Source: a virus. From it: a DNA stretch of 24,792 bases. The position numbers and the translations under genes are program-made. The stretch's first letter is position 1. The number at the start of each line of letters is the position of its first letter. Shown piece by piece: positions 5,301-22,956 of the stretch. The notes beneath the pieces were generated by a model that was not told the DNA's origin, did no database searches, and saw only the letters and a list, made by a program, of their open reading frames with translations. The stretch covers positions 1 to 24,792 of IMG/VR virus record IMGVR_UViG_3300046009_006332; one strand, given 5' to 3'.

Positions 5301-8300
5301 GATATTCGATTGGGATGGAAATAGAGGTAAAGCGCCTGCTGTAAATTATTTTGATTTATCAAATATTGCAACATCCAAAGGTTTTCACATATTAGCACAA
5401 CAACAAGAACCAACTTCTTATCAAACAAGTGGCAATCAACTAAAAGGTGGTGCATCGATATTTGATTGGGATGGTTCTCGCACTGCTGCACCAGAAGTTA
5501 ACTTCTTTGATACGAGTAATCAAAGAACAACAAAGGGGTTTCATAAGTTTGCTAAGCAACTCGAGCCAACTAAATATCAAACATCTGGTACGACTCTAAA
5601 AGATGACGCTTCTGAGTTTGATTGGAATGGTACAAGAGCAAAATCACCAGAAGTTGATTACTTTGATTTAACTAAAAGATTTACAAAAAAAGGTTTCCAT
5701 AGATTAGCAGAAGTTAGAGAGGAAACCAAATACAAAACAGAGGCTTCAGAATTTACATTCAAAGGTTCACGGCCTAAAAAAGGTGTAAACTATTTCGATG
5801 CTACTGCAAAAAATGCTGCTGGTTTTACTCAAAAACCAGAATCATTACAAACAGAATATAAACACGAATCTTCAAATTTTGGGTTTACTGGTAAATTACC
5901 AAGTCCAATTGATTTCTTTGATAATAAAGATTCAGACGGTTTTGTATTAAATGCAGAACCACTTCAAAGTAAATTTAAGGAAGACACTAGTAAGTTTACA
6001 TTTTCTGGAAAAAGAAGTAACGCACCTGTAATTGATTATATAGAAAATAAAAATGCATCAGGATTTAATTCATTCCCGCCATTACTTGAATCCAAATATG
6101 ATTTAGATTCTACACAATTTGGCTGGAAGGGTGTTCGAATAAGTGCACCAGCAGTAGATTTCTTAGATAACGCTGCTTCAAGTGGGTTTACAACATTCGC
6201 ACAAACATATCAAAGTTTTTATACTGAAGATTTTGGTACATATAATTGGAAAGGGACACGTTTAGAAGCGCCAAATGTTAGTTGGTTTGGTATTACACCA
6301 AAAAGAAAAATGCAACTGCCAGACTTGGATTCTGCTACCCGTAGTGTTATGACTGATCAAGGGTTTAAAACTTTCTTTGAAAATAAAGAAAATACAAACT
6401 TAGCTTCAAGTTATTCAACACTATCAACTGAAAATGGACTGAACAAATCTTTAGTGAATAATATTCCTATGACTAATTTCTTTGGATATACTCCTTCCAC
6501 AAGAAACGGGTTTATGGTAAAAATGACATCAACGAGTGATACTATGTATCCGATAATTTCACCAATGATGCGATACGATTTACAACTGCAACAAAGAACT
6601 CCTATTCAAATATCAAGAGGTGAACTCCAAGGTGGACTCATTACAGATAGAGAATTGTATGCACCCAACACTTTTGGTAAAAAGATTTTCGGTAATGGTA
6701 GATTATCTTCTTTGCAAAATCAAGTACCAGATTCAAAGGTTGATACTGATTCTTCTTACTATGGAAGAACATACGAAGAAAACATAAGAAACTTTACAGA
6801 GAAAAAAGGATACGTTGCTAAATGGGCAATAAAACAAAATTCACCTTCACCATTAGACTTACAATATTCCAAATTTAATTTAAGAGCAGATGCTTACAAT
6901 CCAGACTTCTTAGGTTCAGCAGACCAACCATTTGTGATGAGAGACATTGGTCAGAGATGGGGATTTGGTGCAAACTTTGATGAAGGACTTGTTCGTGGTG
7001 GTGCTGTTACAATGGCAGATCGTATTCTTAATGACGTAATACGTATTGGTAAATTCTTGATAACTGGTAAAGGTTTACTGTTCTTAGCAAAACAAGTTGG
7101 CTTACAATTAATGAATCCGAATGTAGATGAAAGACCAGCTAACGGTATTATTGATTCATTGGCTTCTGCAACTTCTTTTGGGATGTCACCAACACAAATT
7201 TTCAATCCTTTGGCTTTAATTGCAAATACAGGTGGTGCACCAATTGGTTTAAGATTACCAAGACACAGTTTGTTGGGTGCTTTGGATTCATCGATGTTGA
7301 ATCGATACGGTGATACTGCAATAAAAAGAGAATTTTTAAAAGATGGTACACCTGCTGGTTCAAATTTCAAAGAATTAGAAGTTCCAAAAAGCGATGGTGA
7401 TCAAACAGATTACAGTAGATTAATCGGATTGATGAAAGAATTATTACCTAATTCATTCAAACCTAATGTTGCAGGCTTAACATTTGATCATGCACACGCA
7501 AAAATATATAGAATTTCAAGTGGATTCGGTGGACCAGGTGCTCCATTAGGAATTGGTGGTACAAAAATAAGAAGAGCAACTCATCCATACCTTACTTATT
7601 ATACAACCAATGCATTCTTAGTTGAGGCCGTACCACCAACTCCACCTGCCACAACAACCGCAGCAAGTGCAGTACCAACTTCTCCGGCTGCTGCAGCTGC
7701 TTCAGCAGGTGCTGCATTAGGACTTGGTACAACTTCAAATCCACAATATCAAAAAACTGCACTTAGAAATCAATTTTATAATCTTGGTGATAAAAATGGT
7801 GATGTGAATCCAGGTGGAAGTTATTCTGCTGAATTGTTTAATGAATATAACACAAGTGGAAAATCTGCATTCGGTATGATTAAAGGACTTATAAACTTGT
7901 TACCAAATGGTCCAGGTAATACTGTAAGTGCAGGTGGTGGTACAGCGAGTACAGGTAGTGCAGGTACTTCTGGAAGTGCTGCATCCATTCCAATATCTTT
8001 ACATTCTGAGACAATAAACAGAATAAAAGGTTTGGACACATTCACTCCAAAAACAAAAACATTTTCATCGATAATTAAACCAGAAACATATGCTAACGCA
8101 TTGAATAATCAAGACGTTCCGTTGCATAAAAGTTCTCCAACTGAATCAGATCCACTTAAAAAATATTTAACATCAACTTACAGCAACTTACGTAAGGCAG
8201 ATGTTGGAACAGTAACACGTTCACGTAAATACAATGACTTTAGACAAGATATATATGATAGTGAAGTTCCGCCATCTACTCCATCGGGTTCAAACGCAGC

Positions 8301-9828
8301 AGCAGCTCAATTACAAATAAAACAATTTATAATGTCTGACCCAAAGGTTATGCGTTACCATCAACAAAATTTAGAAAATTTCTATGGTCTTGGTGCACAC
8401 GGAGAACCAGGTAGTCAGAGAAATTTACCATTTGTATCAAATATACATTATATGAAAGATAAGAAAACAGGTGCTGCTGTACCAGTTTTGAAGAAAGGTA
8501 GACAATTCCGTGGTGATAGAATTAATATTATAGATTATAAACAAGTAACAAAACCTATAAACAAAAATTTAGTATATGAAAAAAATTTAGATGGGATACC
8601 TGGTTCTGAAGACTTAGTAGAATTTTACTTTACAAGTTTAAAGATTGACAAAGGTGGTATAAATAATCCTGCTGAAGCAATAGTATTTAGAGCAACTTTT
8701 GATAATATTCAAGATACACATAGTCCAAAATGGAATGCTGTAAAATATATGGGTAGAGGAGATCCACTCTATACTTATGATGGCTATGAAAGAAGTATTT
8801 CGTTTGGATTTACTGTGCACATTGGTTCTCGTGATGAAATGAAAGCGTCATGGAGAAAGTTGAATTATCTTGCTTCATGGACTGCGCCAGATTACACATC
8901 AGCGGGTTTAATTCGTGGTCCAGTTATTCGTTTGAATATTGGTCACTTATATCGTAAAATGCCAGGGTTTATAAGTTCGTTATCATATACATTTGATAAT
9001 GTTGGTAGTACATGGGAAACAGCAAAATTACCAGAAGATAGATCACAAACGGTAAAAACTGCTGCTAATGACGCAACACCTAACGTATTACTTTCTTCAC
9101 CTGGTGTGCTACAATTACCAAAAAATATTCAAGTATCTGTTGGATTTACTCCGTTTGGTGTGTATCGTCCAGAATACAATGGTGTCATGTACTCGTTGTA
9201 TGATGATGGAAACACAGGTGATGGTATTGAATCTGGTCTAATGCCAAGTTCTGACACTAAGGTAAACTACTTCAGAGCAATTGATACTAAGGATGATGGT
9301 ACACGTGCAAGCGTAACCGATGCTGATAATACAGCTCTGTTCTCATCACCTAAACCAGATGGTAAAGAAGCCGATTTGGTTGAGGTTGATCCAAAGCTAC
9401 GTGATGAAACTAACGATGAAAAACCAACAACAGTACCCGCAGGTTCTAAAGGACTCGTTGGTAATGCGGCAAAGGCAGGAGAAATTCCAAGTAGCACAAC
9501 AACGGCAACTGATACTACAAAAGTTGCAGGTAATGCACCTGGTACTGGTACGGGTACAACACCAACTTCAGATGGGCAAACTAATGCAGCAGCATCAACT
9601 GTAACTAATCCAACTGCAACTACAACACCTCAGTCTGGAACTAGTGCACCTGCTGATGTTCCACCAAAAACAACTGGTACTGAAACCGTAGTAACAGACA
9701 GTCAATATGGACCTGCTATACCAACTAATGATCAATACGGACCAGCTGCACCTTCAACTACTAATGCAACTGAAACAACTGGTACAACAGATAAACCTAG
9801 AAGTAAAAAGAAGAAAAAGCGTGGTTAG
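2314..9828 (+). CDS. Giant repeat-rich tail/baseplate protein with tube-initiator-like C-terminal domain
   Basis: This is a 2504-residue protein starting at ATG 2314, with AGGA six bases upstream. Residues 68-153 hold four and a bit 20-residue repeats, about 257-360 hold three units of about 35 residues, and 451-1319 hold about 20 units of about 44. A conserved-looking segment follows from about residue 1546 (GQRWGFG, then KFLITGKGLLFLAKQVGLQL). An Ala/Thr/Pro-rich linker lies near 7630-7740. A folded domain at about 8600-9200 contains FRATFDNIQDTHSPKW, YTYDGYERSISFGF and RDEMKASWRKLNYL. That domain resembles the tube/tube-initiator proteins that precede LysM proteins in contractile systems, and the next gene is indeed LysM. 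The tail end is low-complexity and finishes with SKKKKKRG. A baseplate or tail role is well supported by context; the purpose of the repeats is unknown. Confidence 0.75.
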   Translation: MSLVDLQSDLSKFRSTSVKQAKTTSASSKAKDGKNFANVTPVSDKMESMSPNINPLEQSNLAGMMSSTKLDDIKKFNTKPLSGLLGKTKLDDIKKFQTKPIEDLLGKSNLDDNKAFKTTPIESRLEGTKLDDVNPFTTTPIEKRFETSKLDDIVKKVFQEGLVNAVSKYSNINIDSELTPLAKLSSGTIASKFAQIREENFESKLNKSEINPRIIGIGQNNLQSNIQPKQTTLTFNRKDSTPEIPINSSDPSDNITDPKVEINRIPLSLDRNSQSVDITSRGVVLPNDDVVDPKVTINIKPLFNDLKPQSVIINKDLFSPLNNILNPDIAFERSVLSMDKTIESPELFTDLPVDGFITIPDTKIFKTDLRTKLVKDISDYNVDGIPAKYTPISKLMEMTPSQIVDTIRYDLESVQLEDNSKYNLDKAIKTIPFGRNEDPSKSKYSAVDTQEVNFFPDSMASGFTARQQLGDSKFNGDSKYGWVGKSGAAPSVNYMSDENAKGFKTFVEKNKTAFVINSSGFGFVKIPEVNYFDENKLYTKEGFKAFTSQLESAYIDNSSKYGWEGKSGAAPEVNYFDITETNTTAGFTKFVQLYDSKYIPDSSIFNWEGAAPAVNYFDITNTHTAEGFKTLSQPFISSYIPDSSRFDWDGTRDQSPEVNYFDLLSRYTTTGFTKFAQNYDSKYIQDASQFDWDGSKEQAPVVNYFDLTSTYTNDGFTSFSNLYDSKYIQDSSQFDWNGNKENVPTVNYFDLTNAHTNIGFHSFAAKLDSKYIKESSQFDWNGARDKAPAVDYFDLTKRNTTSGFTTFHILHDSKYVKESSIFDWDGVRSQAPAVNYLDLLKQYTTEGFNTFTQFQITKYIPDSSQFDWNGTRSAAPAVDYFDLTKKNTTVGFHTFAIKYESKYVPESSEFDWDGTKQKAPAVDYFDLTKKFTTVGFHTFARKLETKYIPESSEFDWDGKKQKAPAVNYFDLNKRNTTIGFHTFAEQYDTKYIPESSIFDWDGNRGKAPAVNYFDLSNIATSKGFHILAQQQEPTSYQTSGNQLKGGASIFDWDGSRTAAPEVNFFDTSNQRTTKGFHKFAKQLEPTKYQTSGTTLKDDASEFDWNGTRAKSPEVDYFDLTKRFTKKGFHRLAEVREETKYKTEASEFTFKGSRPKKGVNYFDATAKNAAGFTQKPESLQTEYKHESSNFGFTGKLPSPIDFFDNKDSDGFVLNAEPLQSKFKEDTSKFTFSGKRSNAPVIDYIENKNASGFNSFPPLLESKYDLDSTQFGWKGVRISAPAVDFLDNAASSGFTTFAQTYQSFYTEDFGTYNWKGTRLEAPNVSWFGITPKRKMQLPDLDSATRSVMTDQGFKTFFENKENTNLASSYSTLSTENGLNKSLVNNIPMTNFFGYTPSTRNGFMVKMTSTSDTMYPIISPMMRYDLQLQQRTPIQISRGELQGGLITDRELYAPNTFGKKIFGNGRLSSLQNQVPDSKVDTDSSYYGRTYEENIRNFTEKKGYVAKWAIKQNSPSPLDLQYSKFNLRADAYNPDFLGSADQPFVMRDIGQRWGFGANFDEGLVRGGAVTMADRILNDVIRIGKFLITGKGLLFLAKQVGLQLMNPNVDERPANGIIDSLASATSFGMSPTQIFNPLALIANTGGAPIGLRLPRHSLLGALDSSMLNRYGDTAIKREFLKDGTPAGSNFKELEVPKSDGDQTDYSRLIGLMKELLPNSFKPNVAGLTFDHAHAKIYRISSGFGGPGAPLGIGGTKIRRATHPYLTYYTTNAFLVEAVPPTPPATTTAASAVPTSPAAAAASAGAALGLGTTSNPQYQKTALRNQFYNLGDKNGDVNPGGSYSAELFNEYNTSGKSAFGMIKGLINLLPNGPGNTVSAGGGTASTGSAGTSGSAASIPISLHSETINRIKGLDTFTPKTKTFSSIIKPETYANALNNQDVPLHKSSPTESDPLKKYLTSTYSNLRKADVGTVTRSRKYNDFRQDIYDSEVPPSTPSGSNAAAAQLQIKQFIMSDPKVMRYHQQNLENFYGLGAHGEPGSQRNLPFVSNIHYMKDKKTGAAVPVLKKGRQFRGDRINIIDYKQVTKPINKNLVYEKNLDGIPGSEDLVEFYFTSLKIDKGGINNPAEAIVFRATFDNIQDTHSPKWNAVKYMGRGDPLYTYDGYERSISFGFTVHIGSRDEMKASWRKLNYLASWTAPDYTSAGLIRGPVIRLNIGHLYRKMPGFISSLSYTFDNVGSTWETAKLPEDRSQTVKTAANDATPNVLLSSPGVLQLPKNIQVSVGFTPFGVYRPEYNGVMYSLYDDGNTGDGIESGLMPSSDTKVNYFRAIDTKDDGTRASVTDADNTALFSSPKPDGKEADLVEVDPKLRDETNDEKPTTVPAGSKGLVGNAAKAGEIPSSTTTATDTTKVAGNAPGTGTGTTPTSDGQTNAAASTVTNPTATTTPQSGTSAPADVPPKTTGTETVVTDSQYGPAIPTNDQYGPAAPSTTNATETTGTTDKPRSKKKKKRG
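2515..2772 (+). repeat. 20-residue tandem repeats (4 full copies plus a partial)
   Basis: Copies start at 2515, 2575, 2635, 2695 and, partial, 2755, exactly 60 nt apart. The unit reads TKLDDIKKFxTKPIxxLLGK. T/S-K/N-LDD at the start and TTP or TKP in the middle are nearly invariant. The LDD codons are similar (tta or ttg, gat or gac, gat). Confidence 0.9.
3082..3390 (+). repeat. Three diverged repeats of about 35 residues
   Basis: Units begin at 3082 (DPKVEINRIPLSLD), 3187 (DPKVTINIKPLFND) and 3289 (NPDIAFERSVLSMD), 105 and 102 nt apart. A weaker fourth may begin at 2944 (NPRIIGIGQNNL). Shared features are D/N-P at the start, alternating hydrophobics and a later QSV or ESP. The units are more decayed than those on either side. 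Confidence 0.6.
3664..6270 (+). repeat. About 20 tandem repeats of about 44 residues (YFD-GF-SKY-FDWDG)
   Basis: Residues 451-1319 consist of about 20 in-frame units of 36-52 residues, most of them 44 (132 nt). The consensus order is P-x-V-N/D-Y-F-D-L, T-T-x-G-F-x-x-F-A, D-S-K-Y-I, E-S-S-x-F-D-W-D/N-G. The middle units (about 4140-5340) are most alike and share DNA runs, while the outer units at both ends are degenerate. Units beginning near 5340 and 5490 carry an eight-residue insertion after the SKY position. A decayed further unit may follow at 6271. The pattern suggests growth by unequal recombination in the centre of the array. Confidence 0.95.
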
Positions 9829-12950: not shown

Positions 12951-14171
12951 ATGTTTCAAGATAAATCGTGCGTTTGTGTTCCATTACTTTCAAATTGGAA
13001 CAAGCATTCTTCTGATACCGCAGTAATTGGTTTGTACTTTCGATTCACCGATGGTACAGATACGTATATTAACTTTACACATCCAGATGAACTCGATTCC
13101 GATATTCAATTAACTCATATTAAGTTATCGTCAACTTCTCTTGTGTTTAATAAGAAGGCAATGCTTTATCATGGGTTCAATGAAGGTATTGATTTGAATT
13201 CATACTTACATTATTACGCTGGTGATAATCTAAATCCAAGAGAATTTTATCCAAAGGGGATGGAAGTTTTATCTACTAAGTTCTTTAGAATAGATGATTT
13301 AGGTCATGTTATACCATTGGCAAATCAATTGGAATGGGCAAAGAAGATTGCAGAGTATGTTTTACGGTTTGAACAATTTAGAAGTGAAAGTATAATAACT
13401 CAACAATGTATTGACTATTGCAATGACTTTACAAATGTATTTTATGAAATAGAAAAGAATGAAATTCTTGTTGGTGATGAACGTAAGAAACAAAATTATA
13501 TGTGGTACACCGCAACAAGTAGACCGAGCAATGCGTGGAATAACTTTAACTTCTCTGCATTGAATAAAAAAGACGGTACAAGAAATAAAATTCACTCAAG
13601 ATTTGAAGGTGGGAAAATAGTTCAGTTTGATTATGACGCTTTCCATATTAAGTTATTAGCAAAGATTTTAGATTATAAATTTGACTACCACCCATATGAA
13701 CAAATAAAAGCAGAATTAGGAATGGATGGCGAGTATGACGCATTCAAAACAAGAGTGTTTCAAAACATCTATGGTAGAATAACATCAGACTTTATTCAAC
13801 ATCCATTCTTCCAACGTGTACAAGTGGTTATAGATCAATTGTGGGAAGGGTATGAAAATGATGGTTATGTTGATTCTCACTTCTATGGCAAACTATTCAG
13901 AGGTATCCAAGACCCAACACCGAATAAAATATTTAATTATATACTTCAATCGTTAGAAACTGAATATAATGTGAAAAAGATTAAAACTGTTTTACCTATT
14001 ATTAACGATAAAAAGTCTATTTTCTCTATGTATTTGTACGATGCATTCGTGTTTGATATACATCCAGACGAAGAAAACCTAATAAATCTATTAAAAAATA
14101 TTTTTGAAACCGATGGAATGACAGTAAAAGTTTATGCTGGTGATGACTTTGGTGCTATTAAAAGAATTTAA
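12951..14171 (+). CDS. Stand-alone DNA polymerase A-like protein (palm and fingers, degenerate exonuclease region)
   Basis: This is a 406-residue protein with ATG six bases after the previous stop and no good ribosome binding site, so it is probably translationally coupled. Family-A polymerase marks appear in order. TATSRPSNAWNN (187-198) matches the TxTGRLSS-PNLQ signature. FDYDAFHIKLLA matches motif A, with D227 as the metal ligand. FKTRVFQNIYG matches motif B: K266, F270 and Y274 keep the spacing of E. coli Pol I K758, F762 and Y766. N329 and Q333 match N845 and Q849. YDAFVFDI matches motif C with D364. Differences from Pol I are H232 at E710, Y262 at R754 and A365 at E883. Residues 25-80 recall the 3'-5' exonuclease fold without its acidic residues. 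At about two thirds of Klenow size it may be a minimal polymerase or a non-catalytic relative. Confidence 0.7.
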   Translation: MFQDKSCVCVPLLSNWNKHSSDTAVIGLYFRFTDGTDTYINFTHPDELDSDIQLTHIKLSSTSLVFNKKAMLYHGFNEGIDLNSYLHYYAGDNLNPREFYPKGMEVLSTKFFRIDDLGHVIPLANQLEWAKKIAEYVLRFEQFRSESIITQQCIDYCNDFTNVFYEIEKNEILVGDERKKQNYMWYTATSRPSNAWNNFNFSALNKKDGTRNKIHSRFEGGKIVQFDYDAFHIKLLAKILDYKFDYHPYEQIKAELGMDGEYDAFKTRVFQNIYGRITSDFIQHPFFQRVQVVIDQLWEGYENDGYVDSHFYGKLFRGIQDPTPNKIFNYILQSLETEYNVKKIKTVLPIINDKKSIFSMYLYDAFVFDIHPDEENLINLLKNIFETDGMTVKVYAGDDFGAIKRI

Positions 14172-14657: not shown

Positions 14658-14975
14658 ATGAAAAAAGAAGAACTTGTAGAAGTAATTACACAGAGAGTAC
14701 TTGAAAAGCTCAGCGAACGAATTTCATTATTGGAATCGAGTGGATTTGATATTATATTCAGTTCTCTTAGAAAAGAGTTGAATAAAATAGCTATACTTCC
14801 AGATAATGTAATTGACGCAAGCCAGTACAAAGAACACGAATTAGTCGATGCTTTGAAGAAAATTGGTTATGAGTATAAAAAACCAATGGGTAACAAACTA
14901 CATTTTTTTAATAAAAAAACAAGTATAAGTCTGTATCTAATTCAGAAAACTTTGAAAATAACACTTATGCCATAA
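14658..14975 (+). CDS. Hypothetical protein, 105 residues
   Basis: The ATG at 14658 follows a purine stretch (agaagaaaat) that is only a weak ribosome binding site. The N-terminal half (EELVEVITQRVLEKLSERI, then LRKELNKIAI) is charged and predicted helical. The second half (HELVDALKKIGYEYKKPMG, then KLHFFNKKTSISLYLI) could form a small strand-rich domain. I recognise no family. It is followed ten bases later by the 448-residue gene and is likely transcribed with it. It has no signal peptide and no cysteine. Confidence 0.6.
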   Translation: MKKEELVEVITQRVLEKLSERISLLESSGFDIIFSSLRKELNKIAILPDNVIDASQYKEHELVDALKKIGYEYKKPMGNKLHFFNKKTSISLYLIQKTLKITLMP

Positions 14976-14985
14976 GAGACATTAA

Positions 14986-16332
14986 ATGAAAAAAACACAG
15001 ACTAAAAAAGTACGTATTATTAAAGAAGATGTTTCTTCTGCAAATATAAGCCCCATAAGTTACATGGTGTTTATAGATATTTCTAGTTATCTATTCAAAG
15101 GTCGTGGTTTATTAAATTCTATGTTTTCAAGTAAAGCAACTGAATCTATTACAAAATGGTTTGGTAGAGTAAAAGAAGACGAAACTTATAAGGAAAATGA
15201 AGAGGCATTCAAAGCCATTTCTTCAAGATTTATGGGCAATCCTATTTTGAAAAAACTTTATAGTTCAATAGACAAACTTAAAACCATTTCAACTGGCGAA
15301 ACAGATCAAAGTGAAAGAGATAAAGATATTGAAAACTTATTGGGTAAAATAAGTTTATTTATTAAAAATAGACTTACAAAAAAAGAAAGAGAACTTATTG
15401 GTAAAATTTCAACTGTAGTTAATTCGATTGGTAATAATATTTCTTCTACCATAAAATCAGACTTAGAAGCAATGACAAAAGCAGAAGCACCTGCACCAAT
15501 CCAGCCAAAATCTAATGAAGAAAAACCAAAAGTAGAAGGGAAAGTAAATGAAAGACTAAAAAATAAGTTGCGTAAGAAAATCAAAGAAATAGTACGCACT
15601 AACATTATCAATCAACATTATAAAAATGAAGGAGTTTCTAAAATGAAAACGCAAAAAGACTTGGTAAACGAAGGAAGAAGAATCCAAGAGACTTTTAGGA
15701 AAAAAGTTAATGAGGGGTTTTTTGACAAAATAAAAGATGTGTTCAGAGATTCAGAGGAGTTTAAAGAGTTGGTAAAGCAGTTTGGCCTTGATAGAGAGAA
15801 GGTATTAAAGAAATCAGATGGAACTGTTGATGTAGCTAATGTATTTAGGGTAGATGGTAATTTTGATTGGATGGACGCTGATAAAAAAGGTTTAGCACTT
15901 GCAGTTAATAAAATTTTAAATAACGGAACTTTACAGATAAGTAATATTACAGGACAACCAACTCTTTTCAAATTAGAAAGATGGCCAAGAATATGTGCTG
16001 AAGTTACGATTACAAAATGTGACTTGGTTAGTTTTGAGGGATTTGCAATTGAGCTTGAAGGCGGCGGTAAGGTAGAAGTAAATCAATGTGATAATTTAAA
16101 ATCTTTAAAAGGTCTTCCGTCATCACTTAAAGACTTCAGTTTTGGGTATGGTGATTTCAAAAATTTTGAAGATTTTGGTGATGTTAAGACAACTCGAATA
16201 GTAACTTTACCTGGTACAAGTAAGATGGCGGTTGAAGCATTAAAAGCAAGTAACAATGATGTTAAGGCAGCAGAAGCGGCGTTATCGAAACAAACAGGTA
16301 TGACAATCAGTCTTCGTGGTATTAAAAAATAA
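14986..16332 (+). CDS. Two-part protein: helical lysine-rich N-terminus, packaged-protein-like C-terminus
   Basis: This is a 448-residue protein from ATG 14986, with only a weak GAGA upstream. Residues 1-219 are mostly charged helices (for example IENLLGKISLFIKNRLTKKE), then a Pro/Lys linker (APAPIQPKSNEEKPKVEG) and a very basic helix (KLRKKIKEIVR). Residues 220-448 begin with a second N-terminus, MKTQKDLVNEGRRIQETF. Then comes a helical stretch and a leucine-rich-like part with TITKCDLVSFEGF and KVEVNQCDNLKSLKGLPS, similar to short LRR-like segments common in large phages. Nothing suggests an enzyme. A strong internal ribosome binding site inside the gene (see next entry) suggests it makes two products, or is a fusion of two genes that lost the stop between them. 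Confidence 0.65.
   Translation: MKKTQTKKVRIIKEDVSSANISPISYMVFIDISSYLFKGRGLLNSMFSSKATESITKWFGRVKEDETYKENEEAFKAISSRFMGNPILKKLYSSIDKLKTISTGETDQSERDKDIENLLGKISLFIKNRLTKKERELIGKISTVVNSIGNNISSTIKSDLEAMTKAEAPAPIQPKSNEEKPKVEGKVNERLKNKLRKKIKEIVRTNIINQHYKNEGVSKMKTQKDLVNEGRRIQETFRKKVNEGFFDKIKDVFRDSEEFKELVKQFGLDREKVLKKSDGTVDVANVFRVDGNFDWMDADKKGLALAVNKILNNGTLQISNITGQPTLFKLERWPRICAEVTITKCDLVSFEGFAIELEGGGKVEVNQCDNLKSLKGLPSSLKDFSFGYGDFKNFEDFGDVKTTRIVTLPGTSKMAVEALKASNNDVKAAEAALSKQTGMTISLRGIKK
15643..16332 (+). CDS. In-frame internal product with capsid-targeting-like N-terminus
   Basis: ATG 15643 lies within and in frame with the 448-residue gene. It is preceded by AAGGAG at 15629-15634 with eight bases between, a far better site than that of the longer gene. 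The product would be 229 residues. Its first residues, MKTQKDLVNEG, resemble the start of T4 internal protein III (MKTYQEFIAEA, recalled). The segment to residue 25 is closely shared with the gene at 20017. VNE-G occurs at residues 9-11 and 22-25 and looks like a prohead-protease site. The rest is a helical part followed by an LRR-like part. Whether the ribosome uses this start, the upstream one or both cannot be decided from sequence. Confidence 0.5.
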   Translation: MKTQKDLVNEGRRIQETFRKKVNEGFFDKIKDVFRDSEEFKELVKQFGLDREKVLKKSDGTVDVANVFRVDGNFDWMDADKKGLALAVNKILNNGTLQISNITGQPTLFKLERWPRICAEVTITKCDLVSFEGFAIELEGGGKVEVNQCDNLKSLKGLPSSLKDFSFGYGDFKNFEDFGDVKTTRIVTLPGTSKMAVEALKASNNDVKAAEAALSKQTGMTISLRGIKK

Positions 16333-16968
16333 TTGCAAGTGATAAAGTTAATTAATATATTAAAAGAAATGGGGATAGATAAGGGTGCGTTCCATGGATT
16401 TGGAATGAAACCACAAGATATGCGTGTTGATAGTTGCAATGTGGAATGGACAAGTCCAGACCAAGATACCGGTTGCCCTGCGTTTTCTGATTCAACTAAA
16501 ATTACAGAAGAAGATATTACCAAGGCAATCGAATATCTAAATACGGAAAAACTAAAAACATTAATAGCATATTCAAGGGGTGGCGCAATATTATTACAAG
16601 CGTTATCTATGGGTGCTAAGAAACCATCAACAGTTTATTTAGTGGCTCCTGCTTGGAATAGACAATGGCCTACTGTGAGTTTAACTGGTTCTGAAGTAAA
16701 CGGAAGTGGTGCAATAATTCATGGTGGTAGTGATAATGTAGTTCCATTAAAACATTCTGTAATATTAGCAAAGGCAAGTGGTATGCCACTATATGTTTTT
16801 CCAGGTGCTAATCATGTTAGTATATTAAAAAATAAAGATAATCCAACATCTGGTATTTTATTGAAAAACTTAGATGAAGCAATGGAAATATTACCAGATT
16901 GGGGAAAAACAGGAAAATGTTCAGATGCAGAGTTGATAATACAAACAGATTTTGTAAATAATATTTGA
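16333..16968 (+). CDS. Alpha/beta-hydrolase fold protein (esterase/lipase-like)
   Basis: About 211 residues, starting directly after the previous stop with TTG 16333. GTG 16339 (giving IKLINILKEM) or ATG 16369 are alternatives; none has a good ribosome binding site, which points to translational coupling. The catalytic order of an alpha/beta-hydrolase is visible. An early HGFG loop (21-24) could form the oxyanion hole. The nucleophile elbow is LIAYSRGGAIL with S81, where the usual first Gly is Ala. The acid is in HGGSDNVVPLKHS (D134) and the histidine in FPGANHVSIL (H161). It would hydrolyse an ester or a related bond; the substrate is unknown. No signal peptide is seen. Its place between a gene with a packaged-protein-like N-terminus and the ParB-like gene suggests a host-directed or virion-carried enzyme. 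The fold call is firm, the role is not. Confidence 0.75.
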   Translation: MQVIKLINILKEMGIDKGAFHGFGMKPQDMRVDSCNVEWTSPDQDTGCPAFSDSTKITEEDITKAIEYLNTEKLKTLIAYSRGGAILLQALSMGAKKPSTVYLVAPAWNRQWPTVSLTGSEVNGSGAIIHGGSDNVVPLKHSVILAKASGMPLYVFPGANHVSILKNKDNPTSGILLKNLDEAMEILPDWGKTGKCSDAELIIQTDFVNNI

Positions 16969-16976
16969 GTCATACC

Positions 16977-17882
16977 ATGAGTAAATTAAGTGTGTTGTTG
17001 GGTGAAGTTAGAGATTTCAAACGAAGTGCAATAGATAACGCTAAATTTCGTCTTAGAGAAACATTCATTAATGAAGACGCCCTTAACGAAGACAAGGGGA
17101 CAAATATATTGAAAACGATTCTAAAAAAGGATTACAAGCAATTTGTTGCTTCTCTTGGTAAACACATAAAAGATCCAAAATTTATTGCAGCGATAGAAAC
17201 ATTGTCTGACAAAGCACCTGTAAAAACATCCGCAATTGCACCTGTCTGTACGGATTTAAGACCAACTCAAAATGAAGTTGTAATGGATAAATCTTTAAGT
17301 TATCCACTAACAGATGTACCAAGTGCCGAACAATACTTAAAAGGTGGAGTGGTTGCGGTTGCAGGTAAATCAATTATAACATCGGGTGGTGGTAAATATG
17401 TAATAGATGGACATCATAGATGGTCACAAGTGTTGTGTATTAATCCAGAAGCTAAAATTAAAGCATTAGATTTAACAGATATTAAAGAACCAATTGAAGC
17501 ATTAAAAGCAACACAACTTGGTATTGCAGCTCAAACTGGAGATGTTCCCAAAGCATCTGGTGGTGGTGTCAATTTGTTTACTGTTAGTCAAGACGAGCTA
17601 AAAAAATATGTTATTGATAAAATAAAAGAGCCAGTTGTTGCTGTGTTTGAAAAATATGGTAAAGGTGATACACCAGAAGCAATTGCAGATTATATTTGGG
17701 AAAACGTTAAAGTGTTAAAATCTACAAGTAAACCAGTTACGGGTGCACCGAAGCGTGACGTTATGCCCCAAACAGATGATGCTCCACAATGGGTTGATAA
17801 CACTTTCAATGTTGAGAAATTGCCAGAAGAATTAACTAATCGATTCAAAGAACTATTACGGTATAACAACAGAGATAAATAA
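16977..17882 (+). CDS. ParB/sulfiredoxin-like domain protein
   Basis: A 301-residue protein from ATG 16977, eight bases after the hydrolase stop. An upstream in-frame TTG at 16965 overlaps that stop and has no ribosome binding site. Residues about 85-175 look like a ParB/Srx fold: VPSAEQYLKGGVVAVAG, then YVIDGHHRWSQVL with the D-G-H-H-R signature at 144-148, then IKALDL. In ParB this loop binds CTP or acts in nuclease-like relatives, and in sulfiredoxin it binds ATP; phage versions are mostly uncharacterised. The N-terminus (KLSVLLGEVRDFKRSAIDNA) and two NED steps (INED at 31-34, LNED at 36-39) recall cleavable packaging leaders. The C-terminal third is Pro/Lys-rich and then helical. A terminator follows six bases after the stop. 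Confidence 0.7.
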   Translation: MSKLSVLLGEVRDFKRSAIDNAKFRLRETFINEDALNEDKGTNILKTILKKDYKQFVASLGKHIKDPKFIAAIETLSDKAPVKTSAIAPVCTDLRPTQNEVVMDKSLSYPLTDVPSAEQYLKGGVVAVAGKSIITSGGGKYVIDGHHRWSQVLCINPEAKIKALDLTDIKEPIEALKATQLGIAAQTGDVPKASGGGVNLFTVSQDELKKYVIDKIKEPVVAVFEKYGKGDTPEAIADYIWENVKVLKSTSKPVTGAPKRDVMPQTDDAPQWVDNTFNVEKLPEELTNRFKELLRYNNRDK

Positions 17883-17887
17883 AATCA

Positions 17888-17920
17888 CTGGGGACATTTT
17901 GTCCCCAGATTTATTTTACA
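17888..17920 (+). terminator. Rho-independent terminator after the ParB-like gene
   Basis: A perfect nine-base stem, CTGGGGACA (17888-17896) and TGTCCCCAG (17900-17908), encloses a TTT loop and is followed by ATTTATTTTA. The GC-rich stem in AT-rich DNA five bases after a stop codon makes this a confident call. It ends the 14658-17882 block and isolates the ssb unit. Confidence 0.85.
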
Positions 17921-17926
17921 TAAGAT

Positions 17927-17955
17927 TTGAATATTAAACACTAAAACATTATATT
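17927..17955 (+). promoter_or_regulatory. Sigma70-like promoter for ssb-uvsX
   Basis: TTGAAT (17927-17932) and TATATT (17950-17955) are separated by 17 bases. They match the bacterial -35 and -10 consensus at four and five of six positions. The pair lies just after a terminator and upstream of the ssDNA-binding protein gene. Transcription would start near 17962, placing the hairpin at 17968 at the very 5' end of the message. Confidence 0.5.
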
Positions 17956-17967
17956 TGTACTAACATA

Positions 17968-18009
17968 TTGAACGATATGAGTTCAACATTATTTATTATT
18001 TATTAAGGA
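17968..18009 (+). promoter_or_regulatory. Possible autogenous translational operator of ssb
   Basis: TTGAAC (17968-17973) and GTTCAA (17981-17986) form a six-base hairpin with the loop GATATGA. An unstructured AU-rich run with two TTATTTAT units follows at 17989-18003, then AAGGAG at 18004-18009. T4 gene 32 is repressed by its own product through a 5' structure followed by an unstructured AU-rich region covering the ribosome binding site, and the layout here is alike. Loop bases ATGA (17977-17980) could also pair with TCAT at the start codon. This is inference by analogy. Confidence 0.4.
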
Positions 18010-18017
18010 GTTACATC

Positions 18018-18788
18018 ATGGCTATCAATCTTGATGCAATTAAAAATCGTCTGTCTTCATTAAAAAACACAAACAATCGTGTTTCAAACATTTGGAAACC
18101 AGAACCAGGTGAACATCAAATCCGAATTGTTCCTTATGTTCACAACTTAGAAAATCCATTCATTGACCTTTACTTTCATTACAACATAGGAAAGCGTTCT
18201 ATTCTTTCTCCTGTAACATATGGTCGCCCTGACCCTATTCTTGAGTTTGCTGAGAAGTTAAAACAAACAGGTGACAAAGAAGATTGGCTAATGGGAAGAA
18301 AGCTCGAACCAAAAATGAGAACATATTTACCAGTTATTATCCGTGGACAAGAATCTGAGGGTGTAAAGTTTTGGGGATTTGGTAAAATGATTTATGAAGA
18401 ACTTTTAACATTTTTTGCTGATGAAGATTACGGTGATTTATCCGATCCTAAAAATGGGCGTGATATTGTAGTTACTGTTAAGTCAGCAGAAGAAATCGGT
18501 AAGTCTTATGCAGAAACATCTATTCGTGTTAAACCAAAACAAACACCACTTACAGAAAATGCTGCGGTTCTTGAGAAAGTTAAACAGCAACCAAAAATCA
18601 ATGAACTTTATCCAGAACCAACTTATGATGAATTAAAATCCCAATTACAAACTTGGATGGGAACTACACACGAAGATGTTGTAAAAAGTTCTACAAACAA
18701 CACATATGGTAAAACCAGTAATTCAGACGAACATACAAAAGCGGTAACTTCTTCAACAGTTGCTTCTTCTTTCGATGACTTATTTTAA
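18018..18788 (+). CDS. Single-stranded DNA-binding protein, T4 gp32-like
   Basis: A 256-residue protein with AAGGAG eight bases before ATG 18018. The order fits gp32: a short basic N-terminus for cooperative binding (LDAIKNRLSSLKN), a core beginning WKPEPGEHQIRIVPY (26-40), with PFIDLYFHYNIGKR and FWGFGKMIYEELL, and a C-terminal tail rich in Ser/Thr and acidic residues ending SSFDDLF. The acidic tail is where gp32-type proteins dock partner replication proteins. T4 gp32 is slightly longer (301 residues) and binds zinc through His and Cys; this protein has no cysteine at all, so the zinc site is absent. It lies 14 bases before uvsX, which suits joint work in recombination-dependent replication. 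The identification rests on the core pattern, the tail and the neighbours. Confidence 0.85.
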   Translation: MAINLDAIKNRLSSLKNTNNRVSNIWKPEPGEHQIRIVPYVHNLENPFIDLYFHYNIGKRSILSPVTYGRPDPILEFAEKLKQTGDKEDWLMGRKLEPKMRTYLPVIIRGQESEGVKFWGFGKMIYEELLTFFADEDYGDLSDPKNGRDIVVTVKSAEEIGKSYAETSIRVKPKQTPLTENAAVLEKVKQQPKINELYPEPTYDELKSQLQTWMGTTHEDVVKSSTNNTYGKTSNSDEHTKAVTSSTVASSFDDLF

Positions 18789-18802
18789 TAGGGATATACG
18801 TT

Positions 18803-19948
18803 ATGGCAAAATCAAAGAGTGACTTATCCGATGAACTCGGTGGAGTTATTGCAGAAACAATAAATAAAAAGTTCAAAGAACAGCATTTTAAAACCGCTTA
18901 TTTTCTTGAGGGTGATAGTGATGCACCCACGATTGTAAAAGAATGGGTTGGTACTGGCTCAACAATTCTTGATTTGGCAATTTCAAATCGTAAGAATGGT
19001 GGATTTCCAGTCGGTAGAGTGTCTGAAATAACAGGATTAGAACAATCAGGTAAATCATTGTTAGCAGCACATGCTCTACTAAATACTCAAAAAAAAGGTG
19101 GACTTGCAGTTTACATAGATACGGAAAATGCAATATCTCCTGAGTTTTTAACCGCAATTGGTTTGAACCTTAAAGATATGCTTTATATTCCATTAGATAC
19201 GATGGAAGATGTTTTTGAAGCGGTTGAGGTTATTATAGAGAAAGTTCGTTCCTCTGATAAAAACAAATTAGTTACAATAGTTATTGACTCTATTGCCGGT
19301 GCATCTACTAAAACAGAGATGGCTGCAGATTTTGATAAAGATGGTTATGCTACGGCAAAGGCACTTATCATTTCAAAAGCAATGAGAAAAATAACAAACT
19401 TAATCGGTAGAGAAAGAATTTGTTTGATATTTACAAATCAACTTCGTCAGAAATTAAATGCGCCAGCATTCTCCGATCCTTGGACAGCACCTGGTGGTAA
19501 AAGTATTCCTTTCCATGCCTCTGTTAGAATTAGATTGTCTTCTATTGGTGCTATAAAAGTAAAAGTAGATGGACATGAAGAAATCGTTGGTTCAAGAGTA
19601 AAGGCTAAATTAGTAAAAAATCGTTGTGGTCCTCCTCTGCGGGAATGTGAATATGAAGTATACTTCGATTCAGGAATCGATGATTACAGTAGTTGGTTAA
19701 CAACTATGAAGGACTATAAGTTGGTTGATCAGGCGGGTGCTTGGTATTCATGGACAAACAAAGAAACGGGTGAAGTTATTAAATTTCAATCGAAAGATTT
19801 TGTTGAAAAAATTATGAATCATCCAAAATTAAAAGAAATGATTTATGATGAAATTGCAGAAAAGGTAATTATGAAATACCAACAACTTGACTCTGCTCGT
19901 ATTGATGAAGTAATTATTTCAAATCAGCCAATTGATGATGAGGTATAA
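18803..19948 (+). CDS. uvsX: UvsX/RecA-family recombinase
   Basis: A 381-residue protein with AGGGA upstream of ATG 18803. Walker A is GLEQSGKS (78-85). The catalytic glutamate is E108 in VYIDTENA. Walker B is TIVIDSIAG with D162. The glutamine switch is Q213 in FTNQLRQKLNA. Then follows APGGKSIPFHASVRIRL (229-245), the RecA/UvsX part around the second DNA-binding loop. The length is near T4 UvsX (391 residues). It forms ATP-dependent filaments on ssDNA, displacing the SSB encoded just upstream, and drives strand exchange, repair and recombination-dependent replication. The C-terminal part (from about 300) is charged and family-variable. Phage-type wording such as NQLRQK favours UvsX over a host RecA, though the two are homologous. 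Confidence 0.93.
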   Translation: MAKSKSDLSDELGGVIAETINKKFKEQHFKTAYFLEGDSDAPTIVKEWVGTGSTILDLAISNRKNGGFPVGRVSEITGLEQSGKSLLAAHALLNTQKKGGLAVYIDTENAISPEFLTAIGLNLKDMLYIPLDTMEDVFEAVEVIIEKVRSSDKNKLVTIVIDSIAGASTKTEMAADFDKDGYATAKALIISKAMRKITNLIGRERICLIFTNQLRQKLNAPAFSDPWTAPGGKSIPFHASVRIRLSSIGAIKVKVDGHEEIVGSRVKAKLVKNRCGPPLRECEYEVYFDSGIDDYSSWLTTMKDYKLVDQAGAWYSWTNKETGEVIKFQSKDFVEKIMNHPKLKEMIYDEIAEKVIMKYQQLDSARIDEVIISNQPIDDEV

Positions 19949-19954
19949 TTTTAT

Positions 19955-19978
19955 TGGGGATAAACAAATTTATCCCCA
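19955..19978 (+). terminator. Hairpin terminator after uvsX
   Basis: A perfect ten-base stem, TGGGGATAAA (19955-19964) and TTTATCCCCA (19969-19978), has the four-base loop CAAA and lies six bases after the uvsX stop. The tail (TATTTATATTTA) is T-rich but not a pure run, so termination may be partial. The right arm directly abuts the promoter-like motif at 19976. Confidence 0.7.
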
Positions 19979-19987
19979 TATTTATAT
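19976..19987 (+). promoter_or_regulatory. Candidate late promoter motif, copy 5
   Basis: The core ATATTTATAT (19978-19987) is shared with the copies at 2283 and 9829. It ends 29 nt before ATG 20017 and directly follows the uvsX terminator stem. The gene behind it is bounded on both sides by terminators, so it needs its own promoter or read-through, which strengthens the case for this copy. Confidence 0.45.
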
Positions 19988-20016
19988 TTAAACACATTAT
20001 TTTTGGAGTATTTGAT

Positions 20017-20436
20017 ATGAGTAAGACGATAAAATTAAAGGATCTAGTGCAAGAAGGAAGATCCATACATGAAAAGTTTAACAAAAAAATGAATGAAGCA
20101 CCTTTCGGAAATCCACCTATTGGCAATATACCTCCTGGAATCCCAGGTCAATCCATCAATATAAAAGAATTGGTTAAAGATTATGTGGATTACCGTAAAA
20201 CAGAGGAATACAGCGGGAATATGGAAGACACAAGAGAAGCTGAAATGCAAATAAAATCATTAGAGCAACAAATAAAAAAAATGAAAGGTAATCCATTTTT
20301 TGAAATGGTGCATGAATTATCAAGGTTGGTTATTTACAATGAAGAATATGCTTCAATGGAAGAATCAAGAGAGATAGAACAACAAATACGTCAGTTGGCT
20401 CCAAAATTAGGCATATCGGCAAACGATTATATTTAA
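20017..20436 (+). CDS. Small protein with capsid-targeting-like N-terminus, insulated by terminators
   Basis: A 139-residue protein. ATG 20017 is chosen because GGAG at 20005-20008 lies eight bases upstream; an in-frame TTG at 19954 lies inside the uvsX terminator. The N-terminus (KDLVQEGRSIHEKF, residues 8-21, then KKMNEAPF) is nearly the same as that of the internal product starting at 15643. VQE-G (11-14) and MNE-A (25-28) look like prohead-protease sites. A Pro/Gly/Ile linker (31-45) follows. The rest is helical, with a duplicated pattern EEY, ME, RE, QI, L at 63-82 and 109-126. No catalytic motif is visible. It lies between replication genes but has its own candidate late motif and a terminator on each side. 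A virion internal protein is my best guess. Confidence 0.7.
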   Translation: MSKTIKLKDLVQEGRSIHEKFNKKMNEAPFGNPPIGNIPPGIPGQSINIKELVKDYVDYRKTEEYSGNMEDTREAEMQIKSLEQQIKKMKGNPFFEMVHELSRLVIYNEEYASMEESREIEQQIRQLAPKLGISANDYI

Positions 20437-20567: not shown

Positions 20568-21614
20568 ATGAACAAAAAATATCAAAGACTTTTACAAGAA
20601 ATAGAAACTGAGAAAGAACTACAAGGTAATTTACACCGCGATAGTAAGGTTTTGATTGTAGATGGAATGAACTTATTTATAAGAACATTTTCAGCTATTC
20701 CTACTCTTAACGAGGATGGGCAACACATCGGTGGTCTTTCTGGTTTTCTCCAATCACTCGCTGCAACAGTCCGTATGGTTAATCCCACACGGGTTGTTGT
20801 GGTCTTTGATGGGAAGGGTGGTTCACTAAGAAGAAAGAAAATATATTCAAATTACAAGGAAGGTAGAGCAAATAAATCTAAATTAAATAGGGTTGCGGGT
20901 TTTGAGAATCTTGAGGATGAACAAAAGTCTATGAGGTTTCAACTGTTTCGTCTGTTTACTTACTTACAGAATTTGCCATTAACCATTATATCGATGGATA
21001 ATATTGAGGCTGATGATGTTATTGCCTACCTTTCTTTTTATTTGAAAGAACAATCTGTTATATTATCGAATGATAGAGATTTTTTACAGTTGGTATCAGA
21101 ACAAGTTTCTGTTTATTTACCAACGAAAAAAAAGTTATATACACCGGAAAATCTATTAGAAGAAACGGGAGTATGGTGTGAGAATTTTATTTTATTCAAA
21201 GCATTATTAGGCGATAAGAGTGATAACATTAAAGGTATTAATGGGTTTGGTGAAAAAACAATATTGAAACATTTCCCAATACTTTCAGAAAAAAGAAAAA
21301 TTGATTTAGATATGTTCGTAGAATTTTGTAAATTGTATGATAATAAATCTAAAGCAATCAATGAACTCAAAAATAACATTAGTGTATTAGAAACTAACTA
21401 TAAGATTATGCAATTACACGATGTTGATATTTCACAAAGTTTTAAATCATCTATACGTGGCATGGTCGATGGTGAAATCCAAAAACTAAATAAAATGGAA
21501 TTGGATAAATTATTTATAGCAGATAAATTATACTCTGCTATACCTAATTTTGAACACTGGTTGCAAAGAAATTTTGGAAATCTAAATACGATTCGGAATA
21601 TATATGCAGGATAA
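20568..21614 (+). CDS. 5'-3' exonuclease / RNase H, FEN family (T4 Rnh-like)
   Basis: A 348-residue protein. The frame is open from ATG 20511, but that codon lies at the end of a terminator, so I prefer ATG 20568 (20553 is also possible). FEN acidic clusters appear in order: VLIVDGMNLFIRTF with D32, VVVVFDGKGGSLRRKK with D81 and the basic arch residues, NIEADDVIAYL with E147, D149 and D150, ILSNDRDFLQLV with D169 and D171, and LLGDKSDNIKGINGFGEKT with D216 and D219 plus the helix-hairpin-helix. The full metal-binding set is kept, so it should be active. Such enzymes remove RNA primers and 5' flaps during lagging-strand synthesis. It overlaps the helicase start by 11 bases, which suggests coupled translation. 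Confidence 0.9.
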   Translation: MNKKYQRLLQEIETEKELQGNLHRDSKVLIVDGMNLFIRTFSAIPTLNEDGQHIGGLSGFLQSLAATVRMVNPTRVVVVFDGKGGSLRRKKIYSNYKEGRANKSKLNRVAGFENLEDEQKSMRFQLFRLFTYLQNLPLTIISMDNIEADDVIAYLSFYLKEQSVILSNDRDFLQLVSEQVSVYLPTKKKLYTPENLLEETGVWCENFILFKALLGDKSDNIKGINGFGEKTILKHFPILSEKRKIDLDMFVEFCKLYDNKSKAINELKNNISVLETNYKIMQLHDVDISQSFKSSIRGMVDGEIQKLNKMELDKLFIADKLYSAIPNFEHWLQRNFGNLNTIRNIYAG

Positions 21615-22956
21615 TTTATCCCAATACGGTCAAACGTTTCAAACAAAAGTAATTATTTCACTATTAAAAGATAGAGAATTCTTACAACAAGTGTCAGACC
21701 TTATAGATCCAACTTATTTTGAATCACAGGCAAACTCTTGGTTAGTTGAGAAGATTATTTCTTATTATGAGAAATATAAAAGTCCACCAACATCAGACGT
21801 ATTCAAATCTGAATTACTAGTGGTAGATGATAAAGTATTGAAAACAACGGTAGTTGATGCACTTAAACAAGTAAAAAAGTACACAGACAATTCTGATGAT
21901 GAGTATGTTAAAAATACTGTACTTGAATTTTGTAAAAATCAAAAGATGAAAATAGCGATATTAGAATCAGTTGATTTGTTAAGAAGTGGTAAGTATGATT
22001 TGATTAAAAAGAAAATTGATAATGCACTTAAAGCAGGAGCGGATAAAGATATTGGACATGAATATAAAATTGATGTAATATCTCGCTATGCAGAAGGTGC
22101 GAGAGTGTGTGTTCCAACTGGTTGGAATGTTATCAATGACATTATGTCAGGTGGGTTAGCAGCAGGAGAACTTGGTGTATTAGTTGCACCAGCCGGCGGT
22201 GGTAAGTCATGGGGCTTAGTGAGTGTTGCTGCAAATGCAGTTAAAGCAGGTAAACGTGTTATTTATTATACACTTGAATTGAATCAACATTATGTTGCAA
22301 GAAGATTCGATGCTTACTTCACAAAGATTGCTTTTCAAAACTTAGGCGAAGAACACGCACAAGAAAAAATTAAATCGGCAATGGAGAACTTAAAGGGTGA
22401 ATTGATTGTTAAATATTATCCAACAAAAACTCCATCGATTAACACACTCACTTCGCATATAGAGAAATGTATTAGTCAAGGTAAACCACCCGATTTGATT
22501 ATTGTTGATTACGCAGACTTGATTAAACCCGCAAAAGCAGGTGATAAGAGATTAGAGTTAAACGATATTTACGAAGACCTTAGAGGAATTGCAGGTTTAT
22601 ATCAACTTCCAATTTGGACTGCTTCACAAGCAAATCGTTCTTCATTGGAAGACGATGTTATCGAAGGTGGTAAGGTTTCAGAATCATATAATAAAATGAT
22701 GATTGCTGACTTTGTAATGTCACTATCAAGAAAGTTAGATGATAAAGTTGGTGGTACAGGCAGATGGCACATTATTAAAAATAGGTTTGGTCCAGATGGC
22801 ATGACGTTTCCAAGTAAAGTAAACACAATGACTGGCCATATAGAAATATACGAACCTAACTCCGATATGGGTAAAACTGTAACGGTTACTATGAAAGGTG
22901 AAAAGAATGTAAAGAAAGCACTTTCACAAAAATTTAAAGAGTTGGAAGGATTCTAA
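21604..22956 (+). CDS. Replicative DNA helicase, DnaB/T4 gp41-like
   Basis: A 450-residue protein, ATG 21604 within the end of the nuclease gene. Residues 1-150 are an all-helical N-terminal domain (FQTKVIISLLKDREFL), as in hexameric DnaB-type helicases. The RecA-like motor follows: TGWNVINDIMSGGLAAGELG (172-191), Walker A APAGGGKSWG with K201 and S202, the catalytic glutamate E225 in YYTLELNQ, Walker B LIIVDYADLI with D302, motif H3 TASQANRSS with Q342, and the arginine-finger segment IIKNRFGPDGM with R394. The length is close to gp41 (475 residues). It unwinds DNA 5'-3' on the lagging strand; no primase is seen in this window. The stop is followed by a possible very small reading frame and a terminator. 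Confidence 0.93.
   Translation: MQDNLSQYGQTFQTKVIISLLKDREFLQQVSDLIDPTYFESQANSWLVEKIISYYEKYKSPPTSDVFKSELLVVDDKVLKTTVVDALKQVKKYTDNSDDEYVKNTVLEFCKNQKMKIAILESVDLLRSGKYDLIKKKIDNALKAGADKDIGHEYKIDVISRYAEGARVCVPTGWNVINDIMSGGLAAGELGVLVAPAGGGKSWGLVSVAANAVKAGKRVIYYTLELNQHYVARRFDAYFTKIAFQNLGEEHAQEKIKSAMENLKGELIVKYYPTKTPSINTLTSHIEKCISQGKPPDLIIVDYADLIKPAKAGDKRLELNDIYEDLRGIAGLYQLPIWTASQANRSSLEDDVIEGGKVSESYNKMMIADFVMSLSRKLDDKVGGTGRWHIIKNRFGPDGMTFPSKVNTMTGHIEIYEPNSDMGKTVTVTMKGEKNVKKALSQKFKELEGF

Follow-up and report, generated by a model that had tools for sequence, protein, structure and literature searches.

A predicted removable, capsid-targeting-like leader on unrelated proteins of environmental T4-like phages

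Introduction

Two genes of a T4-like phage, at 15643 (gene A) and 20017 (gene B) of a 24.8-kb virus record (IMG/VR record IMGVR_UViG_3300046009_006332, whose whole stretch of 24,792 nucleotides is called the window below), encode unrelated proteins that begin with much the same sequence. We will show that this N-terminus is one form of a leader that heads many unrelated proteins in related phages, with a glutamate placed just before the protein body. In our assessment it is probably a removable capsid-targeting propeptide, cut by an S77 prohead protease, that serves to load the head with proteins which would probably be ejected.

Signals of this kind are known from T4. According to the available text of a review (PMC9026906), the T4 capsid-targeting sequences (CTSs) comprise 10-19 residues, with mainly positions 4 and 7 important for targeting and 8 and 10 for processing, the cleavage motif of the protease gp21 is L/I-x-E, and CTSs are suggested as a route to load varied proteins. 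Of the T4 internal proteins (IPs), IPI is an inhibitor of a restriction system. A similar role has been proposed for IPIII, which the phage needs on one host strain (accessible part of PMC9391042). The scale of the present system, the exchange of leaders and a long leader form with two sites appear to be new. A literature search, with subscription papers and preprints outside its scope, found no report of this leader or of a CTS study in these phages.

Results and Discussion

The initial annotation pointed to 14 identical residues out of 20 between the starts of the 15643 product (KDLVNEGRRIQETFRKKVNE) and the 20017 product (KDLVQEGRSIHEKFNKKMNE), on bodies that are otherwise unrelated, and both observations are borne out. 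The local alignment score of the two N-termini is 72, which none of 5000 shuffles reaches (maximum 43). Within one related phage, 9 of 27,966 N-terminus pairs reach this score, and these are likely explained by paralogues. For the bodies, blastp retrieves only the family of the query, and the predicted models consist of four helices for B and are strand-rich for A. Since different codons are used at 7 of the 14 identical residues, conservation acts on the peptide and not on the DNA. The start of T4 IPIII given in that annotation, MKTYQEFIAEA, is also correct and is found in ipII and ipIII alike.

The leaders and leader-bearing genes of the window described here all lie on the plus strand. Gene A has the long leader MKTQKDLVNE/GRRIQETFRKKVNE/ (15643..15714; slashes mark predicted cuts), which would be cut after residues 10 and 24, and the long leader of gene B is MSKTIKLKDLVQE/GRSIHEKFNKKMNE/ (20017..20097). 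VNE followed by GFFDKI is kept in 3/3 distinct homologous N-termini of gene A, [MI]NE stands right before the body in 11/11 of those of gene B, and the last glutamate of the long tag is invariant over nine tags (set A2) that cover six body types.

A profile of the long tag, built from eight tag sequences and run over all open reading frames (ORFs) of the collected records, retrieves 31 distinct N-termini at E<=6.2e-9, and the next match has E 3.9. Each match coincides with a start codon or lies close to one, which in two cases is an internal ATG of a fused ORF (the window with L055; G002 with L056). They head seven bodies, namely A at 15643 (4 sequences), B at 20017 (12), C in G007 and others (2), D (6), E (5; it adjoins D in G005 and others), F in G002 (1) and G in L086 (1), and no tagged body retrieves any other by blastp. 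A search of bacterial and archaeal genomes for the long tag (A1) gave 414 short pattern matches, none of them confirmed, and the tag was seen only in this group of records. The long form looks like a short leader, (I)KLKDLVxE, extended by a second segment, GRxIxxxFxxKxxE, that would end in a second cut. We read it in this way because gene B holds IKLKDLVQE (20029-20055), which matches the short leader, and body C starts with MIKMKDLVQEG.

The short leader itself, the 10-residue MIKLKDILxE, starts many neighbors and relatives. A degenerate DNA pattern for it is found in at least 120 stretches of IMG/VR, compared to none for a permuted peptide of equal composition. Among the matches listed, 119 new loci hold 128 short-leader ORFs with bodies in 66 clusters (three of the ORFs are shorter than 60 residues and four read MIKF instead of MIKL); the first 79 loci account for 87 ORFs and 51 body clusters. 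A relaxed leader pattern gives 68 matches in 11 records and 7 for the reversed control, although most of these records were picked for holding leaders and the matches with three mismatches may include chance ones. The leaders occur in runs, for example at 9.1-14.4 kb in G019 and 137-140 kb in G018. They are also confined to protein starts: a strict core pattern, derived from these same leaders and applied to partly related records, matches 25 of 751 starts and none of 183,194 internal positions. Further tagged N-termini, for which the initial annotation recommended a search, are thus numerous in relatives and in IMG/VR, and in the window six genes have leader-type N-termini (14658, 14986, 15643, 16339, 16977 and 20017). 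Gene starts in relatives other than the named phages come from a simple gene caller that sometimes picks a downstream start, so that leaders are missed.

Leaders are exchanged on one and the same body. Body D has the long tag in 6/8 distinct sequences and MIKLKDILKE in 2/8. In a tree of the eight sequences, the short-leader copy L064 pairs with the long-leader copy L089 (bodies 89% identical, support 0.99), while the second short-leader copy, in G008, is placed elsewhere. Because the two short-leader copies sit apart, the tree suggests at least two leader exchanges, and recombination may move leaders as exchangeable modules onto unrelated bodies.

Such mobility raises the question of whether the tag is recombination debris, a 5' end that was copied not long ago and is functionless in itself. 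One body with both long and short leaders would fit this explanation, as would the GGAG that precedes both tagged window genes (AAGGAG at 15629..15634 before the 15643 ATG, and GGAG at 20005..20008 before gene B, both Shine-Dalgarno-like) and the stand-alone gene A of the relatives L004 and L006, where it is comparable. The codon differences described above speak against it and indicate selection on the tag peptide, and 72 of the first 87 short-leader 30-mers are distinct at the DNA level. In the gene B family, moreover, 19 of 27 leader positions are invariant compared to 26 of 112 in the body, and over 55 pairs the mean identity is 0.89 for the tag and 0.67 for the body, with the tag above the body in 52. 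On these grounds we consider debris highly improbable.

We now consider the junction between leader and body. Across 13 families, 89 of the 93 distinct N-termini carry a motif [LIVMF]-x-E shortly before the body, at a distance of at most 4 residues, or of at most 14 in the ParB-like family and family D. The background is 10% for distances of 0-4 residues and 26% for those of 0-14. In this count the homologues are not independent, several of the 13 families were noticed through their leaders, and body starts were defined with manually written patterns, with rows lacking a pattern match or having fewer than six preceding residues dropped uncounted. Three of the four misses belong to the 14986 family, in which the anchor or the cut is misplaced and INE or IKE is visible, and one is a true miss (TNE). 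In the S-adenosylmethionine (SAM) lyase family, the leader varies in length and the glutamate is kept, as in ILKE/SGLSR, NVNE/SGLSR, QLNE/SGLAR and ILGE/SSLSR. The glutamate sites first noted in genes A and B are thus a general feature of the homologues examined, nearly all of which have the motif before the body.

These junctions bear on another explanation, in which the tag is a docking or oligomerization helix that is retained on the protein and never removed. The tag is indeed strongly conserved and is predicted, with low confidence, to be helical: in the AlphaFold2 model of gene B (11 sequences), a helix spans residues 7-25. However, the position of [LIVMF]-x-E right before the body across the 13 families, the two such sites in the long form and the presence of proteases in these phages all argue against retention, which we judge to be very unlikely. 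In the same model, residues 1-46 have a confidence (pLDDT) below 50 and the blocks from residue 51 on reach 84-92; such a low-confidence stretch between the leader and the confident body (linker and four helices, 20098..20436) is as expected of a detachable tag.

The removable capsid-targeting propeptide calls for a protease, and the gp21-type S77 prohead protease (PF03420) is indeed found in relatives, in 3 of 11 records of a first set and in 14 of 20 leader-bearing records, including 7/7 of those longer than 140 kb. G004 and G008 each contain gene B as well as the protease. In the 368-kb record G017, the S77 match (G017:C1:71514-72392) is split into two stretches of one 367-residue frame, which would fit an insertion within the domain.

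The major capsid proteins (MCPs) of these phages have a similar site. L[ILV]xE, with A, S or N as the next residue, lies upstream of an EW[ASG]G motif in 19/19 distinct sequence segments. Of 36 ORFs with an MCP blastp match, 21 contain EW[ASG]G[VIL], and L[ILV]xE[ASN] is present in 21/21 of these. Nine of the other 15, whose matches start near the N-terminus, were read. L[ILV]xE is present in seven of them, of which six contain EAWAG or EQWAG and the other is a sequence truncated at the site; three of the seven read LVNE like the gene A tag. The remaining six ORFs are fragments with matches beginning at residue 297 or later. A diverged MCP from a 368-kb record reads LIKE/K at a possibly equivalent position. 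T4 gp23 itself contains FLTE/A, which we take to be its cut site.

The leader is also found in the head gene cluster. A core-type gene that lies close to the protease and is homologous to 21704-22168 of Microcystis phage Mel-JY01 (PP395634.1, 190 kb; the nearest named phage found, with 67.7% identity in UvsX) has a leader in 14 of 22 distinct homologues, reading MIKLKDILKE, MKLKDLLNE, MAKLKDLVKE or similar; seven of the 14 entered the set through the leader search itself, and most loci come from that scan. Between the protease and the capsid genes, Mel-JY01 has a gene annotated as ribosomal protein S21 (22183-22410), and S21-like genes, assigned by position and appearance only, are found at the same place in G026:66539-66766, G030:76327-76671 and G020:50629-50865.

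Taken as a removable capsid-targeting propeptide, the leader would act as follows. During assembly it would dock its protein onto the prohead core. The S77 protease would then cut after [LIVMF]-x-E and thereby free the body inside the head, with the long form of genes A and B ending in a second cut by the same enzyme. The freed body would probably exit with the DNA at infection, and by analogy to T4 we infer that it enters the host in this way.

The bodies are varied. They include the alpha/beta hydrolase of the window, an S-adenosylmethionine lyase (G001:51277, E 2.5e-10; another at Mel-JY01 52405), a zeta toxin, a NUDIX protein, phage lysozymes, a tail-lysozyme/M23 protein and many unknowns. 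A cytidylyltransferase-like protein annotated at Mel-JY01 11243 has a leader by the loose pattern only. A SAM lyase that arrived together with the DNA would be well placed for early counter-restriction. Some bodies had been suspected to be ADP-ribosyltransferase-like from a YHFT motif; examples searched against Pfam, NCBIfam and PDB sequences did not return this family, and the assignment is not claimed. Leader-bearing repeat proteins with LGRSPSGNIFLNFN / REGRSPSGDILLNID are found at G005:53071-53517, in L154 and at G031:17594-18031.

Because some of the bodies are lysozymes, the destination has to be read with caution. The leader might send its proteins to another virion part, such as the baseplate or the tube of the tail, or else to the membrane of the infected cell, with [LIVMF]xE merely part of a helix. 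The tail-lysozyme/M23 protein and two phage lysozymes would fit such a destination, as would the position of the window cassette downstream of large tail-type genes. Against this stand the presence of the leader in the head gene cluster, on a gene close to the prohead protease, the occurrence of L[ILV]xE also at the expected MCP cut, and the glutamate that is kept at the body boundary of the SAM lyases while the leader length varies. We consider another destination unlikely.

It is important to point out that a number of observations weigh against a capsid-targeting propeptide. The lysozyme bodies, one with a tail-lysozyme domain, are not obvious head cargo. At the third residue before the cut (P3), the long tag frequently has V or M, compared to the L/I-x-E reported for T4 gp21; the long tags of genes A and B have V or M there and fit only the relaxed [LIVMF]xE, while as a counterpoint some MCPs of these phages read LVNE or LVKE. 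Although S77 proteases are present in relatives, the check for a gp21-type protease proposed initially gave no match within the window fragment, and leader-bearing contigs without a protease make up 8 of 11 in the first set and 6 of 20 in the second, all shorter than 90 kb and perhaps incomplete. The core-type gene lacks a leader in 8 of 22 homologues, including those of Mel-JY01, G004 and G008. In Mel-JY01 the long tag was not found, and a loose leader pattern is not enriched (6/237, with a shuffle mean of 4.1 and this number reached in 212/1000), so this pattern was dropped as unspecific. Pelagibacter phage HTVC008M has an annotated protease and an MCP reading FLGE/I, and no leader match was found in it. 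With the other tagged proteins and the S77 protease in relatives, the suggestion of a removable, capsid-targeting-like leader is nevertheless supported as a candidate assignment.

Compared to the CTSs of T4 (IPI, IPII, IPIII and Alt, and the gp24 propeptide), the leader is likewise N-terminal, removable (here by prediction) and common to unrelated bodies. MIKLKDILxE is hydrophobic at positions 4, 7 and 8 and has glutamate at 10, the residues that matter in T4 as far as the accessible review text describes them, and T4 gp24 (MAKINELLRE) and ipIII (MKTYQEFIAE) have the same layout. In contrast to T4, the present leaders differ in sequence, head many more bodies, occur in gene runs, include a long form with a second site, and vary on one body family. 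Pfam and PHROGs scans of ten window proteins, including gene B and, within a 448-residue ORF, gene A, named no family homologous to the T4 IPs.

The giant phages phiKZ and SPN3US offer a second comparison. In the available parts of the sources, a gp21-like protease cuts after a short motif ending in glutamate, SPN3US gp53 and gp54 share N-termini, and phiKZ propeptides carry redundant sites. The same parts describe several propeptides of more than 100 residues and the motifs S/A-x-E or A-x-E, whereas the present leaders have 10-27 residues and [LIVMF]-x-E.

We now turn to the surroundings of gene A. In the window, its tag begins at an internal ATG of a 448-residue in-frame ORF (14986..16332), a candidate polyprotein that joins the tagged gene A to an upstream body with its own short leader, MKKTQTKKVRIIKE/ (14986-15027). 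The two parts are fused in the window, L003 and L005, where the stop between them is missing, and separate in L004 and L006, where it is present. In the latter two, the tag is the true N-terminus, because the upstream gene stops before it. The missing stop leaves room for a fused protein as well as for a separate gene A protein. The start at 15643 given in the initial annotation thus has its own AAGGAG and counterparts in two relatives, but in the window it lies inside a longer frame.

In Mel-JY01, a SAM-lyase domain is fused to a 14986-type body (52405-53691), with INE/ at the joint. Such head-to-tail fusions of leader-bearing bodies are possible polyproteins. The C-terminus of the 14986 body (14986-15630), VNERLKNKLRKKIKEI[IV]R, is kept in the homologues of L004, L005 and L006, and it looks like a further propeptide at that end of the protein. 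For comparison, T4 Alt is processed at its N-terminus and its C-terminus alike (PMC9026906, available text).

Body A (15715..16332, 205 residues) has a strand-rich predicted model with a mean pLDDT of 70.9, which is based on 4 sequences and less certain than that of gene B. Fold searches against the PDB gave nothing at E<=0.001 for body A or for gene B, and a PDB sequence search with body A gave nothing at E<=1. Fold matches of body A to leucine-rich-repeat proteins are weak (E 2.0 and worse) and were not used as evidence. Also set aside were Pfam and PHROG matches of about 0.01-0.1 for the 448-residue ORF and gene B (one PHROG at 0.008), and weak PADLOC matches for gene B (E 0.003 and 0.008).

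Three further window genes bear leaders. A 105-residue gene (14658..14975) has a predicted 26-residue leader ending in SLLE/SSGF (14658-14735), and [LIVMF]xE stands directly before the body in 11/12 distinct homologues. The alpha/beta hydrolase gene (16339..16968; Pfam Abhydrolase_1, 3.9e-06, above the cut-off) begins with MIKLINILKE/ (16339-16368). Its start is most likely the GTG at 16339 and not the TTG at 16333, which we prefer because several relatives read MIKL... there, and the leader is present in 9/9 distinct homologous N-termini. No relatives of the hydrolase or of body D were found in the phage collection. The ParB-like gene (16977..17882; ParBc_2 at E 0.025, weak and below the cut-off) has the leader MSKLSVLLGE/ (16977-17006) and further sites FINE/ and LNE/ (to 17090), and in 12/12 distinct homologues sites lie within 14 residues of the body. 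The hydrolase and ParB-like N-termini, initially described as looser versions of the tag, are better seen as short forms of one leader, with that of the hydrolase re-read as given here.

The window runs from large tail-type genes, so labeled from their position and by comparison with Mel-JY01, through a variable cassette (12.2-17.9 kb) to a gp32-like gene, UvsX, gene B, a 5'-nuclease, a DnaB-type helicase and another large gene. Mel-JY01 shares this gene order and has an annotated prohead protease (S77, 21029-21691), and its MCP reads QLISE/A at the predicted cut; cuts after glutamate are likewise predicted for the products of 60276, 60923, 62056, 52405 and 52060. Short leaders head three paralogues there and also the SAM-lyase domain, while it differs from the window in having neither the long tag nor gene B. 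A 2504-residue ORF of the window (2314-9828) contains many degenerate repeats of the type DSSxFDWxGxRxxAPxVNYFDLTxxxTxxGFxTFA, and Mel-JY01 has a 2255-residue ORF at the equivalent position. A 406-residue gene (12951-14171) matches a DNA polymerase family of PHROGs only weakly (E 0.008 over 26 residues) and has homologues in several relatives and in Mel-JY01.

Conclusions

We lean, with some reserve, towards a broader proposal, in which the leader is a general address label. Environmental T4-like phages would load arsenals of unrelated enzymes, from SAM lyase, hydrolase and zeta-toxin-type kinase to NUDIX proteins, lysozymes and numerous unknowns, into the head by means of interchangeable MIKLKDILxE and KDLVxEGRxIxxxFxxKxxE leaders, genes would join the injected set by gaining a leader, and some would be fused into polyproteins that the protease separates. 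If the leader works in this way, a 10-residue signature would single out, among the many unknown genes of environmental T4-like phages, those whose products travel in the virion and reach the host at infection, and these proteins would be the most likely to act against first-line host defenses. The suggestion that CTSs load varied proteins, made in the available text of the T4 review (PMC9026906), would become testable over many genomes, and the leaders would provide new packaging tags for engineered heads.

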